Below are positions 3,449-9,312 of a stretch of 64,000 nt of DNA, piece after piece; within the stretch, counting starts at the first letter, position 1; each line of letters begins with the position of its first letter. The notes below the pieces were generated by a model that was not told the DNA's origin, did no database searches, and was given only the letters and a program-made list of their open reading frames with translations. The stretch lies in NCBI RefSeq assembly GCF_003130405.1, contig NZ_QEAS01000002.1, positions 109,289 to 173,288 of the forward strand. The letters run 5' to 3'. Position numbers and translations under genes: made by a program. Origin of the DNA: Pararcticibacter amylolyticus. GTDB taxonomy: Bacteria; Bacteroidota; Bacteroidia; Sphingobacteriales; Sphingobacteriaceae.

Positions 3449-3456
3449 TATATTTG
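3449..3456 (+). promoter_or_regulatory. -7 promoter box of the S-box transcription unit
   Basis: TATATTTG matches the Bacteroidetes TAnnTTTG -7 element and lies 14 nt before the first paired base of the SAM riboswitch, placing the transcript start within about 10 nt of the riboswitch. No convincing -33 TTG is visible. Confidence 0.55.
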
Positions 3457-3470
3457 CACCATAGTTTTTG

Positions 3471-3565
3471 CTTATCCAGAAAGATGGAGGGAAAGGCCCT
3501 GCGAAATCTTGGCAACCTGTAATAACAAGGTGCTAATTCCTGTCCGCCAAGGCGGAGAAGATAAG
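3471..3565 (+). ncRNA. SAM-I (S-box) riboswitch
   Basis: The P1 helix is CTTATC (3471-3476) paired with GATAAG (3560-3565). Between them are the hallmark blocks: GATGGAGGGA, GGCCCTGCGAAATC, TTGGCAACC and AAGGTGCTAATTCC. The P4 hairpin TCCGCC-AA-GGCGGA follows. These are the conserved kink-turn, SAM-binding and P3 elements of the S-box family. The expression platform is unclear: an AT-rich hairpin (TGATTTTAAT 3566-3575 with ATTAAAAATCA 3585-3595) follows without a U-tract, so control may be translational. It heads the small ORF at 3626 and the SusC/SusD/DUF1684 genes, implying the unit is repressed when S-adenosylmethionine is plentiful. Confidence 0.92.
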
Positions 3566-3625
3566 TGATTTTAATTGTTTGTCCATTAAAAATCATTCCG
3601 GGTAAGTAAGTTTTTAGAAAGAATT

Positions 3626-3775
3626 ATGAAAACTTATCCAGTAAACACAGTGAAAACAGAAGCAGTAATCAAATCAGTCAAGCCTTCCTGGTCCCATTAC
3701 CGGGACTATCCCATGACGGGCAATTCCATGCATGCCTGTTGTAAGTCACCCCAAGCCTCTCCGATGATCTGCTGA
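3626..3775 (+). CDS. 49-residue Met/Cys-containing small protein or leader peptide
   Basis: An ATG-to-TGA frame of 49 codons lying between the SAM riboswitch and the SusC-like gene, 60 nt after the aptamer and 60 nt before the next start. It begins MKTYPVNTVKTEAVIKSVK and has a central WSHYRDYPMTG segment. The last 20 residues contain three Met and three Cys, including a CC pair and a C-terminal Cys. There is no signal peptide and no membrane segment. I do not recognise a named family. It could be a leader peptide sensing Met/Cys-tRNA, a metal- or thiol-binding small protein, or a precursor of a modified peptide taken up or exported by the neighbours. The position directly behind an S-box makes chance less likely, but its coding status is not proven. 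Confidence 0.5.
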   Translation: MKTYPVNTVKTEAVIKSVKPSWSHYRDYPMTGNSMHACCKSPQASPMIC

Positions 3776-3835
3776 CGTACGGCAGTCAGGAAACAACACA
3801 TTATCAAAAAACAGAACATTCATTAATCAATCAAC

Positions 3836-6800
3836 ATGACATACTTTAACTATTGGAAGTTGAGGCTGAATACCTATGGCCTCAGAAGAACACATTATGC
3901 CTCAATCCTTGTTTTTGCCTTTTGTCTTTATATACCCGGTGCAATACGGGCTGCGCGCACGGCACCCGCAGAGTTATTTAAAAGTCCTGTCAAATTGCAG
4001 GAAATCCACGTCTCCGGAACGGTAACGGATGCAGGCGGGGAAACTCTCCCGGGTGTTTCTGTAAAGGTGAAAGATACACATATCAGCGCATCGACTGATG
4101 CTGCAGGTAAATTCAATATCTCGGTGCCGGATCAGAACGCTATCCTGGTGTTCACCTATATCGGGTTTAATACCCAGGAGCTTAAGGTGGGACAGAAGAC
4201 TTTACTTAATATACGTCTCAGCCCGTCAAACAACAACCTTACTGAGGTGGTAGTGACGGCGCTTAATATCCCGAGAGAAAAAAAAGCCCTTGGTTATGCA
4301 GTTCAGGACATTGGCGGACAGGCACTTGCCACCCGGCCAACTAACGCACTTAGTTCCATTTCCGGAAAGATCGCCGGGTTACAGGTGATATCATCAGGAG
4401 GAAACATGGGGGGATCGACCCGGGTAACATTAAGGGGAATCACCTCCCTCTACGGTAGCAACCAGCCTTTATATGTAATAGATGGTACCCCTATAGACAA
4501 CACCGACCTGAATACTTCCCCTACGCAAAATGGTAGCGCAGGAAAGGACATCGGCAATATGATCCAGGACCTGAATCCCGACGATATTGAGAATATTTCG
4601 GTATTAAAAGGCCCTTCAGCTTCAGCCTTATATGGTACAAGATCTGCAAACGGGGTCATCCTTATTACGACAAAGAAAGGAAAAACCGGTGACCGGACGG
4701 ATCTTTCTTTTACAACAGGAGTGGAACTGGAAAAAATAGTACGCCTTCCAAAACGTCAGAAACTATATGGTGGAGGGTACTCGAACGAATTTCAGAAAGC
4801 GAATATAAACGGCACAGAATATAACATTGTCGATTATGCAGCCGACGAAAGCTGGGGCCCGCGCCTGGACGGTACCCCCGTCCTGCACTGGTACAATCTC
4901 GATCCGGAATATCCTGCTGATTATCTTAATCCTCAGCCCTGGATCTACCCTAAAAACGACGTAACATCCTTCTTCGAAACAGGAATTTCTAATACTAATA
5001 ACCTGTCTATCAGTGGAGGAAGTGAGAAGACGACTTACAGACTCTCTTATACAAATAAAAATGTCAGCGGTACAGTTCCGAATTCAAGTCTCAACCGGAA
5101 CACAATCAGCGCTTCCGGCTCTTCCAGGTTTGGAAAGCTGAACGCTTCCTCCAGTATTAACTATGTCAAAAATAAAACTACAGGACGTCCATGGACGGGA
5201 GCATCTAACAGGAATATCATGCTGGAAGCGTTTCAATGGGGCCAGGTGCAGGTAGATTACGACAGACTGAAAGAATATAAACGGCCCGACGGAACTCCGC
5301 GTGCATGGAACCGGACCGGCTATCTGAATACCCCGGCAGCTGAAGCCACCCGTTTTATAGACAATCCTTACTGGTCAGCTTACGAGAGTTATCTGAAGGA
5401 AAACCGCGACCGGGTGTTCGGAAATATAGGCCTTGAGCTGGATGCTACTGACTGGCTGAAACTGAGAGGTAAATTAAACGCAGATATTTACCACTATGAT
5501 TTTCAGGATAGAATTGCTGTTTACTCGAGGTCACAATCGAATTACGAAGAATATTTTAATAATTTCAGCGAACTGAACTATGAATTTCTTGCGCTGGCAA
5601 AAAAGAACGTTAATGATTTCTCCATTAACGCAATTGCCGGAGGAAATATCATGAACAAGCGCGGTAGGATCAGCGATGTGATTACCCAGGGCGGACTTAT
5701 CGTTCCCAACTACTATAATCTAAGGAATGCTCCTTCTGTAGCAACAAATTCAAACGAATTTCATAGAAAGATGTACTCGTTATTTGGCAGTGTTTCTGTG
5801 GGATGGAGGAATATGCTTTACCTGGAAGGCACTGTCAGAAACGACTGGTCTTCGACCCTTCCTGAGTCGGACTTTTCATTCATTTACCCCTCTGTTACCG
5901 GAAGCTTTGTGTTTAGTGAACTGAGCGCACTCAAGCAATGGACATGGCTCGATTTTGCAAAACTGAGGTTAGGATGGGCTGACGCCGGGAATGATACGGA
6001 ACCTTACCGACTTGCGAAGGTATATGAGCCCGGACAGGCATTTGGCGGAAGTCCGGTGTATTCATTGCCCTCCACTCTGAATAACGCCAACCTCCAGCCG
6101 GAATTAACAAGGTCGTTGGAAGCGGGTTTAAACATACAGGCCTTACAGAGACGTGTTTCCATCGATGTAACCGTCTACGACAATAAAAGCCGGAATCAGA
6201 CGATCCCAATTCCTTTATCTCCTGCATTCGGTTATGACAGCAAATATCTGAATGCCGGTTTGATAACTAATAAGGGGATCGAGGTCACACTCGGTGCAAG
6301 TCCTGTGAGAAACAACAATTTCGAATGGAACAGTACCCTTAACTGGTCTAAAAACCGGAATAAGGTAGAAAACTTGTACGAGGACGTTAATACCCTGGAA
6401 CTCAGCAACACACTGGTAACTCTCGTGGCAAAAGAAGGTCAGTCTTATGGCCAGATTATGGGCTATGATTTTGTATATGCTCCTGATGGTCAGCGATTGG
6501 TGCAAGCCGACGGTACCTATGCCAGGACAGAACAACTTGTGCCCCTGGGGAGCGTCCTGCCGGATTACCTCTTTGGTTTTCAGAACTCATTCAGATACAA
6601 AAACTTTAATCTTGGCTTCCTGGTAGACGGCAGGGTAGGCGGCAAATTTTTCTCCCAGACCTATAAGGTAGGGATGTATTCCGGTGTGCTCGAACGTACT
6701 GCCGCCAATAATGTCCGGGAAGACGGCATCATTGTAGACGGAGTAAAAGGAAATGTTCAGTTCAATGCCGACGGAACTTACACGGTAAGCAATACCAGCC

Positions 6801-7111
6801 CGAATGATACACGTATCTCCGCTCTTAACTGGGCTAGGAACGAATACAATGGCCCCACCACCTTCAGCGTGTTTGATGCCACTTTCGTAAAATTACGGGA
6901 AGTAACCCTCGGGTATAATTTCAATCTTAAGAATGCCCCGGTTCGCCAGGTTAACCTTAGTCTCTACGGACGTAACCTCTGGAACATTTACACAAAAAGC
7001 AAGTATATAGATCCTGAAATAACCAACAGCGGAGGAAACGTTCAGGGAATAGAAGGAGGGAACCTGCCCGTTCCGGCAACTTTCGGATTAAACTTAAACT
7101 TCAAATTTTAA
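3836..7111 (+). CDS. SusC/RagA-type TonB-dependent outer-membrane receptor
   Basis: A 1091-residue receptor: signal sequence (hydrophobic stretch about 22-38), a carboxypeptidase-regulatory-like beta domain (about 56-135, starting HVSGTVTDAGGETLPGVSV), a TonB-box-like LTEVVVTAL, a plug domain with LYVIDGTPIDN and LKGPSASALYGTRSANGVI, then a long 22-strand barrel ending in the aromatic FKF. It lacks an STN domain, so it is not wired to an ECF sigma factor. It pairs with the SusD-like gene 12 bp downstream, forming a lid-and-barrel importer. Control by the upstream SAM riboswitch suggests import of a methionine- or sulfur-related nutrient rather than a glycan. Family certain, substrate inferred. 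Confidence 0.93.
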   Translation: MTYFNYWKLRLNTYGLRRTHYASILVFAFCLYIPGAIRAARTAPAELFKSPVKLQEIHVSGTVTDAGGETLPGVSVKVKDTHISASTDAAGKFNISVPDQNAILVFTYIGFNTQELKVGQKTLLNIRLSPSNNNLTEVVVTALNIPREKKALGYAVQDIGGQALATRPTNALSSISGKIAGLQVISSGGNMGGSTRVTLRGITSLYGSNQPLYVIDGTPIDNTDLNTSPTQNGSAGKDIGNMIQDLNPDDIENISVLKGPSASALYGTRSANGVILITTKKGKTGDRTDLSFTTGVELEKIVRLPKRQKLYGGGYSNEFQKANINGTEYNIVDYAADESWGPRLDGTPVLHWYNLDPEYPADYLNPQPWIYPKNDVTSFFETGISNTNNLSISGGSEKTTYRLSYTNKNVSGTVPNSSLNRNTISASGSSRFGKLNASSSINYVKNKTTGRPWTGASNRNIMLEAFQWGQVQVDYDRLKEYKRPDGTPRAWNRTGYLNTPAAEATRFIDNPYWSAYESYLKENRDRVFGNIGLELDATDWLKLRGKLNADIYHYDFQDRIAVYSRSQSNYEEYFNNFSELNYEFLALAKKNVNDFSINAIAGGNIMNKRGRISDVITQGGLIVPNYYNLRNAPSVATNSNEFHRKMYSLFGSVSVGWRNMLYLEGTVRNDWSSTLPESDFSFIYPSVTGSFVFSELSALKQWTWLDFAKLRLGWADAGNDTEPYRLAKVYEPGQAFGGSPVYSLPSTLNNANLQPELTRSLEAGLNIQALQRRVSIDVTVYDNKSRNQTIPIPLSPAFGYDSKYLNAGLITNKGIEVTLGASPVRNNNFEWNSTLNWSKNRNKVENLYEDVNTLELSNTLVTLVAKEGQSYGQIMGYDFVYAPDGQRLVQADGTYARTEQLVPLGSVLPDYLFGFQNSFRYKNFNLGFLVDGRVGGKFFSQTYKVGMYSGVLERTAANNVREDGIIVDGVKGNVQFNADGTYTVSNTSPNDTRISALNWARNEYNGPTTFSVFDATFVKLREVTLGYNFNLKNAPVRQVNLSLYGRNLWNIYTKSKYIDPEITNSGGNVQGIEGGNLPVPATFGLNLNFKF

Positions 7112-7123
7112 AAGCTCAGAGTG

Positions 7124-8674
7124 ATGAAAAATAATCTTTCCACCATATACAAAACAGCAGCGGCAGCACTTGTACTCGTTACAGGATTGTCGTCCTGCAA
7201 AGACTTAACAGATATTAATACCGACCCCAACAAAGCGGCTATCGTACCTACAACGACCATTCTGCTTTCTGCAGAAAAACAGCTCGTGGATAACCTTCGT
7301 GGTGAAACATTCTCCCTTAAAGGAGCTATGCTTTTCTCCCAGTATTATAGTCAGAACATTTACACCGATCAGTCCAGGTACAGCATCTCAGCAGGCGATC
7401 TGAACACCTTCTGGTCAAATTCATACAAGACGCTTAATAACCTGGAAGAAATAATCCAGTTGAACACCAGTGAGCAGACAAAGAATGTAGCCGCTGCCGG
7501 AACAGCAGGAACGAATGCCAACCAGATTGCCATCAGCCGGATACTGAAGTCATACATCTTTCAGACCCTGACAGATGCTTTCGGCTCAGTCCCTTACCAG
7601 TCCTACGGAAACTCCGACCCTGATTTCGAAGCTTTACAGCAAATCCAGGAAAATTACACCCCTGCTTATGCCAGCCAGGAAAAGATCTACACCGATATTC
7701 TGAACGAACTCAAGGCTGCAGGCGACACCCTTTTAAAAACGCCTTCGGCAACCACCTTTGGCGCTTCAGACATTATTTATAAAGGAAGCAATGCAAAATG
7801 GGCCAAATTCGCTAATTCACTGCGCCTGAGAGTTGCTACGCGGATAAAGACCAAGCTTCCGCAGCTTTCTGAGCAGCATTTTACCGATGCCGTTCAAAAG
7901 GGAGTATTTTCAGGAAACGAAGACAATGCCGTATTTAAATATTTACCGGCAGCTCCGAATGAAGCCCCTCTTTACCGGGCAACAGTGACTGCAAACCGTA
8001 AGGACTACGCGGTATCGCACGTTCTCATCAATGTCCTGAAGGGGGAGACCGGGCCGTTCAACTTCGCGGATCCGCGCCTGAGTATTTACGCGCTTCCAAA
8101 CGCCCGGAACGAGTACATCGGCCAGCCTTACGGACTGCCGCTTTCAGTTGCCGGGGTAAACGGCCCGACCGACATCAGTCTTCCCGGTACAGCCGTAAAC
8201 GCAGCAGATTATGGCGAAGTTCTGATGGAATATGCAGAGGTAGCCTTCCTCCGTTCAGAGCATGATAACTGGAATGATGCTTCTTACAGGAGCGGCGTGC
8301 AGCGCTCACTGGAGAAGTGGGGGGTAAGTGCCGACAAGGTTTCAGAATACCTGTCTAAACTCCCCGCTGCAAATAAGGAGAACGTCTTAACCCAAAAATA
8401 CCTTGCTTTGTATATGCAGGGGCAGGAAGCCTGGAGCGAGATCAGGAGGACGGGTTACCCCTTGTTCCTGGTGAAACCGGGCGACCTGGTATGGCGGCGT
8501 ACGACTGATACCGGTGTCCAGGAGTATCGTTTTGAACCACTGTTTGGAAACGGGATCCCCAAAAGATTATATTACCCCCTCAGGGAGCAGAGTGTAAACA
8601 GGGAAAATTACCAGCAGGCGCTTGCCGGACAGGGACAGGACAACCTTGAGACAGCCTTGTGGTGGAATAAATAA
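7124..8674 (+). CDS. SusD/RagB-type surface lipoprotein (SusD-like_2)
   Basis: A 516-residue lipoprotein. The signal peptide ends in a lipobox (TGLSSC, Cys25), followed by the KDLTDINTDPNKA start typical of the SusD-like_2 (PF12771) group. The body is alpha-helical with TPR-like repeats, as in SusD. The C-terminal WWNK ending is also family-typical. It acts as the extracellular lid over the SusC-like channel encoded just upstream. A GTG immediately precedes the chosen ATG (7121), so the start could be one codon earlier. It is in the same S-box-controlled unit as the receptor and the DUF1684 gene 14 bp downstream. Ligand unknown. Confidence 0.9.
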   Translation: MKNNLSTIYKTAAAALVLVTGLSSCKDLTDINTDPNKAAIVPTTTILLSAEKQLVDNLRGETFSLKGAMLFSQYYSQNIYTDQSRYSISAGDLNTFWSNSYKTLNNLEEIIQLNTSEQTKNVAAAGTAGTNANQIAISRILKSYIFQTLTDAFGSVPYQSYGNSDPDFEALQQIQENYTPAYASQEKIYTDILNELKAAGDTLLKTPSATTFGASDIIYKGSNAKWAKFANSLRLRVATRIKTKLPQLSEQHFTDAVQKGVFSGNEDNAVFKYLPAAPNEAPLYRATVTANRKDYAVSHVLINVLKGETGPFNFADPRLSIYALPNARNEYIGQPYGLPLSVAGVNGPTDISLPGTAVNAADYGEVLMEYAEVAFLRSEHDNWNDASYRSGVQRSLEKWGVSADKVSEYLSKLPAANKENVLTQKYLALYMQGQEAWSEIRRTGYPLFLVKPGDLVWRRTTDTGVQEYRFEPLFGNGIPKRLYYPLREQSVNRENYQQALAGQGQDNLETALWWNK

Positions 8675-8688
8675 GATCAGGAATAATA

Positions 8689-9312
8689 ATGAAGTTAAAA
8701 TATCTTTTAGTGGTGGCTTGCCTGTGTCAGGCCGCCGCCGCTTTCGCTCAGGATTTTCAAAAGGAAGCAGCCCGCTACCGCAAGGAGTACCTGGAAGGTT
8801 TCCTGAAGGATCAGCATTCTCCCCTGAAGAAAGAAGACCTGAAAAACCTGCATTTTTATGAGGCCGACAGCAACTTCAGGGTACAGGCAAAAGTGACGCT
8901 TCCCGAAGACCAGAAACCTTTTAAGATGCCCACTTTCGACGGAACCAGTAAGGAGTTTATCCGCTATGCAACACTCAGCTTCACGCTGGCCGGCGAGTCC
9001 CGCCAGCTTACGCTGTACAGGAATATTGCTCTGGCGTCTAACGCTGAATATAAGGACTATCTGTTTCTTCCGTTCACCGACCAGACCAACAGCACGGAGA
9101 CATATGGCGGGGGAAGATATATAGACGTCAAAACCAGCGATATCAAAGACGGGAACATCACAATCGATTTCAACAGGGCATATAATCCATACTGCGCATA
9201 CAGTTCCGGTTACCGCTGCCCCGTCCCTCCGGAAGAAAATGATCTTTCTTTAGCAGTGAAGGCAGGAGAGAAGCAATATACCGGGGAAAAGAAACAAAGG
9301 GATGCCCGATAG
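8689..9312 (+). CDS. DUF1684 family exported protein
   Basis: A 207-residue protein with a cleavable signal peptide (cut expected near AAAFAQ, residue 21). The body carries DUF1684 landmarks: KEDLKNLHFYEADSNFRV, RYATLSFTLAG, a YLFLPFTDQTN block, YGGGRYIDV and the near-invariant NRAYNPYCAYSSGYRCP followed by PPEENDL. The biochemical role of this family is unknown; the conserved Cys pair and Tyr/Asn motif suggest a fold-stabilising or active site. It is the third cistron of the S-box-controlled SusC/SusD unit, which links it to whatever that importer brings in. A strong terminator (9342-9384) closes the unit. Confidence 0.88.
   Translation: MKLKYLLVVACLCQAAAAFAQDFQKEAARYRKEYLEGFLKDQHSPLKKEDLKNLHFYEADSNFRVQAKVTLPEDQKPFKMPTFDGTSKEFIRYATLSFTLAGESRQLTLYRNIALASNAEYKDYLFLPFTDQTNSTETYGGGRYIDVKTSDIKDGNITIDFNRAYNPYCAYSSGYRCPVPPEENDLSLAVKAGEKQYTGEKKQRDAR

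Follow-up and report, generated by a model that had tools for sequence, protein, structure and literature searches.

Riboswitches and leader peptides are commonly presented as alternatives. The tnaC leader of E. coli senses free tryptophan, and mycobacterial polycysteine leaders are reportedly leaderless, going by the title of Canestrari et al. 2020, which is cited in PMC13236596. The described systems closest to the one reported here are the polycysteine leaders of Actinobacteria, which are known from Mycobacterium cys operons, from P. acnes and from cbs of B. longum. These leaders are described as having no obvious terminator, Rho and the tna model are proposed for them, and tnaC of E. coli is named as a model (PMC1262725). 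In Rhodobacterales, the uORFC-8-2 motif before cysS contains an upstream ORF with tandem Cys codons, for which ribosome-mediated attenuation is proposed (PMC8632094). Leader peptides also precede amino-acid operons in a Flavobacterium, according to PMC9723704. Among the literature matches listed, which lay mostly outside subscription papers and were available in part, we found no Cys leader behind a SAM riboswitch and none in Bacteroidota; the combination of a riboswitch with a Cys leader may be new. In many of the genomes studied here, a single transcript appears to carry both a riboswitch and a leader peptide.

A 49-codon frame between a SAM riboswitch and SusC

The window, by which we mean the whole 64,000-nucleotide stretch of Pararcticibacter amylolyticus DNA that was analysed, contains the following features near its 5' end.

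3449..3456, + strand: putative promoter of the riboswitch transcript, TATATTTG, which fits TAnnTTTG (sequence)
3469..3567, + strand: SAM-I riboswitch aptamer, RF00162 (Rfam cmscan)
3626..3775, + strand: 49-codon ORF, proposed Cys/Met leader peptide (translation, composition, class evidence)
3737..3742, + strand: tandem Cys codons 38-39, TGTTGT (sequence), predicted to pair with ACAACA at 3793-3798 in the MFE fold
3760..3791, + strand: predicted hairpin over the last Cys codon (3770-3772) and the stop codon (3773-3775) (MFE fold)
3836..7111, + strand: SusC-type TonB-dependent transporter, 1091 aa (Pfam PF07715, Plug, and PF13715, CarbopepD_reg_2)
7121..8674, + strand: SusD-like lipoprotein, 517 aa (Pfam PF12771, SusD-like_2, 280 bits), listed with a GTG start at 7121 and with an ATG at 7124
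8689..9312, + strand: DUF1684 protein, 207 aa, the next same-strand gene after SusD (Pfam PF07920)

The aptamer is the one RF00162 match that cmscan found (84.8 bits, E 1.3e-18, gathering score 44.4) and aligns to model positions 1-108 of 108, so that it is full-length and above gathering. The element at 3449..3456 is likely the promoter that drives the riboswitch transcript; TAnnTTTG is the sigma-A consensus of a flavobacterium in PMC9723704. Behind the aptamer, the ATG of the small ORF follows after 59 nt, and 60 nt separate its stop from the SusC start. The ORF translates as MKTYPVNTVKTEAVIKSVKPSWSHYRDYPMTGNSMHACCKSPQASPMIC, then stop, with Met at 30, 35 and 47 and Cys at 38, 39 and 49. The original prediction had placed a small ORF between an S-box and SusC/SusD genes and had counted three residues each of Met and Cys among its C-terminal 20, with Cys as the final one; cmscan, translation and Pfam confirmed the arrangement, and the translation agrees with the count. 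No signal sequence was apparent by eye in the 49-mer.

The presence of an ORF of 30-70 codons in this gap is, as such, unsurprising: when the gap was shuffled by mononucleotides, 25% of the shuffles held one. As to composition, the window has 261 ATG ORFs of 30-70 aa when both strands are counted, and this ORF alone has at least three Cys and at least three Met in its last 20 residues; the same tail occurs in 3 of 1714 ORFs of the fetched loci (two of these being copies of the window ORF), and of the 621 ORFs at control SAM loci none has three Cys and three Met and one has a Cys+Met count of 6, although these figures overstate the surprise because the cut-offs derive from the finding itself.

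Cys/Met-ended small ORFs behind SAM riboswitches

A protein search of the 49-mer in 100 genomes of relatives returned no clear homologue: matches at E up to 1 occurred in 28 of the 100 genomes, its own included, and the best besides itself had E 0.043. Because the sequence is not recognisably conserved, we compared position and composition instead. Our strict rule called for an ATG ORF of 12-75 aa that starts at most 200 nt from the aptamer and has at least two Cys in its last 10 residues. This rule was chosen after the first loci had been inspected, and 24 later genomes served as the independent test. The set comprised 164 riboswitch loci, 110 from 60 genomes searched (54 with a match) and 54 from 24 further genomes; exclusion of L132 (31 bits, below gathering) left 163 loci to be counted. 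Genes were assigned by motifs with a gene-start overlap of up to 10 nt allowed in the first 100 loci, and by tblastn with up to 20 nt in all 163. Names such as metY, metX, nifS and metZ are those assigned here, and the Pfam families of one representative each, which include Cys_Met_Meta_PP, Abhydrolase_1 and Aminotran_5, agree at family level.

Across all 163 loci, 33 of the 36 metY riboswitches were followed by an ORF that passes the strict rule, versus 1 of 68 at metH. In the 24 genomes added once the rule had been settled, the figures were 12/14 for metY and 0/20 for metH, and in the first 100 loci 20/21 and 1/39, respectively. As controls in these first 100 loci, dinucleotide shuffles passed in 7% of metY and 1% of metH stretches, and the reverse strand passed at 3/21 metY and 3/39 metH loci. 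Among the other targets, the rule was passed at metX (5/12), hom (1/9), cysH (1/3), cgs (1/2) and M28 (1/1), and at none of the metE (0/7), metF (0/3), nifS (0/6), metZ (0/4), M20 (0/2) and redoxin (0/1) loci or of those without such a gene (0/3). Both metY loci outside the family pass (L088, L259). The Pararcticibacter genome itself has five SAM riboswitches, which precede nifS, an M28 peptidase-SusC-SusD-redoxin operon, the SusC of the window, metY and metH; the small ORF behind its metY riboswitch ends FICCCCC. In this family, SAM riboswitches at metY are thus systematically followed by a small ORF ending in Cys/Met; such ORFs are frequent at metX and SusC, and rare at metH.

The peptides of this class differ in length and sequence, and little is kept but Cys and Met near the end. 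In 43 leaders, Cys lies mainly within the last eight positions, encoded by TGT (105) or TGC (86), and the last 12 residues are enriched in Met (60/504 versus 11/1016 elsewhere, P 7e-20, window excluded). Between the members of four close leader pairs, Cys positions had 7 synonymous and 3 nonsynonymous changes, against 13 and 59 at all remaining positions (Fisher P 0.0015). Cys codons that change mostly silently while the rest drifts are the pattern expected of a leader that is read by its codons, not of a peptide, and the Cys codons of the class appear to be under selection. Of 55 leader stretches of metY, metX, SusC and M28 loci, 17 contain the hexamer CGAATG (Arg-Met), versus 2 of 97 controls; its position could be assigned in 15 leaders, and in 14 of these it is in frame.

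Leader starts lie 7-12 nt behind the aptamer in 32 of 33 metY leaders (3 nt at L259) and 10-12 nt behind it in all five metX leaders of this set. The closing stem of the aptamer may overlap the leader start region at both targets and, with the start so close behind the aptamer, translation of the leader could itself be under the control of SAM. In the window, where the start is 59 nt behind the aptamer as against 7-12 nt at metY, such control is at most a possibility.

The window ORF is atypical of this class, since its Cys codons are the 12th, the 11th and the last from the end; with one Cys in the last 10 residues and three in the last 12, it fails the strict rule. Many class members have a run of Cys codons beside the stop, and here a single Cys codon is next to the stop, the other two being 11 and 12 codons from the end. 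The last 20 residues of the ORF do hold a Cys+Met count of 6 (3+3), and 27 of the 43 leaders, that of the window included, reach 6 or more there; among the 261 window ORFs it is alone in doing so. A tail of three Cys and three Met is itself untypical, because 4 of the 43 leaders, again including that of the window, have it.

SusC operons, SusC orthologues and tRNA-Cys

Five loci have a SAM riboswitch directly before SusC. Three of them (L057, L066, L094) pass the strict rule and two, the window and L201, fail it; in the first set, 3 of 4 pass. L057 and L201, which belong to one genus, have CCGAATGTGYATG (Arg-Met-Cys-Met) in common, with leaders that have otherwise diverged. By eye, L057 also has a hairpin with a T-run about 30-75 nt behind the SAM aptamer; as this hairpin lies ahead of the Cys leader, there are perhaps two serial control points. 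A leader can also stand immediately before SusC with a gene intervening behind the riboswitch, as in G006 (SAM-redoxin-leader-SusC) and G002 (SAM-nifS-leader-SusC). No Cys leader was found before the SusC of the SAM-nifS-SusC locus L099 (G031), and no leader at a weak SAM locus of G004. In the genome of the window, the second SAM-SusC operon (L197, G000:C80:22500-34000) consists of the riboswitch, a leader ending SCCKRMCCC, the M28 peptidase, SusC, SusD and a redoxin with DUF4369, an arrangement that suggests import of sulfur-containing peptides.

For 30 same-genus SusC loci, we applied a looser rule (two Cys in the last 12 residues, within 420 nt), which flagged six: the window, G001:C4, G002, L168, L171 and L184. 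The flagged ORFs of the last three look unrelated and have no SAM match, which indicates that chance flags occur under this rule. In the congener G001:C4, a SusC homologue of 39% identity is preceded by a SAM riboswitch and a leader that ends IMCCCCCMP, 61 nt before SusC, and in G002 a homologue of 38% identity has a leader ending SCCCRMCCA behind SAM-nifS. G005:C9 and G001:C12 match the window SusC as strongly as G001:C4 does, yet are without a leader.

The original prediction had asked for a homologue of the ORF at the same place in related genomes, and the outcome was mixed. Beyond the lack of a clear sequence homologue, a GTDB contig scan yielded 28 loci of SusC orthologues with 58-69% identity, and RF00162 at gathering was found near none of these (0/28). 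Comparable short ORFs were nevertheless present before SusC in the two same-genus homologues described above and in orthologues of Olivibacter and Sphingobacterium. The Olivibacter leader ends NSMRMHVQVICC, with its stop 47 nt before SusC. In Sphingobacterium (L268-L289), CGA-ATG lies in a short upstream frame at all 13 loci with upstream sequence (L282 is cut upstream and stands outside the 13), and Cys follows CGA-ATG in 9 of the 13 frames. These leaders are followed by a hairpin, GGRGATAAT/ATTATCYCC, in which 96.6% of cells are paired; one pair alone varies on both sides (AU in 7, GC in 6), perhaps through a single event. No convincing leader was found before the SusC orthologues of Chitinophaga (9), Pedobacter (3) and Rhinopithecimicrobium (1), two Chitinophaga ORFs flagged by their Cys count, at -218 and -124, being unconvincing. 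The presence of leaders at part of the orthologues suggests that, over some of the transporter's distribution, a Met/Cys-type leader is retained whether or not a riboswitch accompanies it.

Poly-Cys leaders for which the fetched DNA gave no SAM match were also seen before TonB receptors (L145, L162), a PhyH dioxygenase (L306) and, in another family, a PAPS reductase (L159). A scan of 21 genomes for four Cys codons plus stop gave many more matches than the reversed control pattern, and was set aside as a source of leaders, most of the 30 loci inspected being other frames. In a scan of 119 class genomes for five Cys codons, L306 and L317 alone among the 30 loci inspected look like leaders with a gene behind.

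A further possible target of these riboswitches is tRNA-Cys. On the same strand, tRNA-Cys lies 58 nt downstream of a SAM riboswitch in G006 (L070/L324) and 49 nt downstream in G203 (L325), and the order SAM-peroxiredoxin-tRNA-Cys occurs in G054 (L225) and G040 (L211), the latter with two tRNA-Cys; the peroxiredoxin is of the 1-Cys type by Pfam. ARAGORN found four tRNAs across the 164 riboswitch loci, all of them tRNA-Cys, in three loci, and these three are riboswitch loci without a met gene. The direct SAM-tRNA-Cys form, searched for as one narrow pattern, occurs in 2 of 251 family genomes. The literature matches listed contained nothing on a SAM riboswitch before tRNA-Cys.

A proposed second sensor, its rivals and known systems

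We infer that ORF 3626-3775 is translated, that it belongs to the leader class and that stalling on it raises expression. In this proposal, charged tRNA-Cys would be sensed at codons 38, 39 and 49 of the ORF and charged tRNA-Met at codons 30, 35 and 47, and the ORF would form a second, translation-based sensor after the SAM riboswitch that heads the SusC/SusD operon. A stalled ribosome would raise SusC expression, and importer expression would be high solely when SAM and Cys/Met are both scarce. In the most speculative step, a ribosome stalled close to the stop codon would shield the C-rich stretch downstream of it from Rho or open the hairpins there, much like one on tnaC of E. coli.

The stretches between leader and gene are more structured than their shuffles (mean z -1.42, n=41) and contain 1010 C versus 648 G, as against 1790 and 1821 in metH leaders. 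In a simple scan for a hairpin with a U-run between leader and gene, 40 of 41 leaders had none and L259 alone had one. When a stalled ribosome was modelled, the main start region was predicted to be unpaired at 0.63 versus 0.59 (P 0.03, n=40), and the same comparison with a ribosome at the stop gave 0.63 versus 0.60 (P 0.13, n=40). In the window, the SusC start region was 0.74 unpaired in all modelled states, and fold modelling found no clearly masked SusC start codon. By these predictions, start-codon masking would have a slight effect at most. Given the structured C-rich gap, the near absence of U-run hairpins and the slight opening of the start, our candidate is a tnaC-like, possibly Rho-linked step, as put forward for the mycobacterial Cys leaders (PMC1262725).

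In the predicted MFE fold of the stretch from 3728 on, the ACAACA that pairs with TGTTGT lies behind the stop-spanning hairpin. The fold of this run with the intergenic stretch has a z of -1.56, which is not significant alone, and that of the whole leader a z of -1.26, also not significant. Two further pairings were considered and dropped. The 9-mer CTTATCCAG occurs both in the aptamer 5' strand and in ORF codons 3-6, as an anti-P1 pairing would have it; the longest exact P1 complement is not unusual (P 0.088), and the whole-leader fold is the non-significant one just given. The last 24 bases of the leaders were predicted to pair weakly with the sequence that follows (mean z -0.36, n=41).

We consider it moderately probable that ORF 3626-3775 works as a Cys/Met leader peptide, though one atypical in its class, and adds a second sensor to the SAM riboswitch. 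The chief competing account, in which a chance ORF lies in an untranslated leader and the riboswitch alone controls SusC, is rather unlikely. It draws on the frequency of comparable ORFs in shuffled gaps, on the 49-mer having no clear sequence homologue, on its failing the strict Cys rule and on the absence of the riboswitch at the 28 close SusC orthologues. Against it stand a Cys/Met tail that is unique among the 261 window ORFs, a spacing to SusC that matches that of the G001 Cys leader in a similar type of operon, and the Cys leader carried by the other SAM-SusC operon in the same genome. The ORF fits the leader class in composition, spacing and type of operon, and fails the strict rule in its Cys placement; a leader is favoured. 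A leader in decay, whose Cys-Cys was once terminal and whose frame was later extended, leaving codons that no longer work, seems improbable. The idea comes from the G029 leader (L066), which ends SMHCC at the stop where the window reads SMHACCK and continues; this likeness is one of few residues, no sister sequence gives the direction of change, and Cys is again the last codon before the stop in the window ORF.

That the ORF encodes a functional secreted or modified small peptide, a metal- or thiol-binding one or a RiPP-like precursor, handled by SusC/SusD, is very improbable. Such a peptide would suit the Cys and Met content and the importer next door, and a reading of this kind had been part of the original prediction. 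It found no support: the peptides of the class vary except for Cys and Met near the end, no signal sequence was seen, and no recognised modification enzyme was found among the seven neighbour proteins scanned. The other reading offered at that time, a leader peptide, stood at the level of the class, given its systematic occurrence at metY, its frequency at metX and SusC and the selection apparent on Cys codons; for the window ORF itself the support is indirect.

A wider picture, possible rather than probable, is that in Sphingobacteriaceae and some other Bacteroidia families a SAM riboswitch gates a leader whose Cys/Met codons decide over metY, and so over homocysteine synthesis, and over SusC/SusD pairs that act as dedicated sulfur-peptide importers; with tRNA-Cys placed under a SAM riboswitch in a few genomes, the aptamer and the supply of tRNA would there belong to one circuit. 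If true, this would constitute a natural gate that responds to SAM as well as to charged tRNA-Cys/Met, would explain why control of metY differs from that of metH, and would hint at Cys- or Met-containing peptides as cargo for those SusC/SusD pairs that are accompanied by an M28 peptidase or a thioredoxin-like protein.

The original statement that no family had been described for such an ORF was too strong, since PMC1262725 describes Cys-run leader peptides in Actinobacteria. The leaders reported here are like those in being short ORFs before sulfur-metabolism genes, with Cys codons near the stop and a terminator that is not obvious. They are unlike them in belonging to Bacteroidota, in following a SAM riboswitch, in containing Met codons as well, and in preceding metY, metX and SusC/SusD rather than cys biosynthesis genes. 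In contrast to the leaderless mycobacterial type, the window ORF is preceded by a riboswitch, with its ATG 59 nt behind. The uORFC-8-2 motif differs in that its two Cys codons are usually at positions 14-15, in its U-run terminator and in its tRNA synthetase target, and the accessible part of its description mentions no riboswitch. Likewise unlike a classical transcription attenuator, the window has no U-run terminator hairpin that we could find between the ORF and SusC. With tnaC, the proposed leader would share a stall near the leader stop and a mode of action without an intrinsic terminator, and would differ in responding to a shortage of charged tRNA. Finally, the window aptamer fully matches the SAM-I (S-box) riboswitch, RF00162, which is here followed at part of its targets by a Cys/Met frame.
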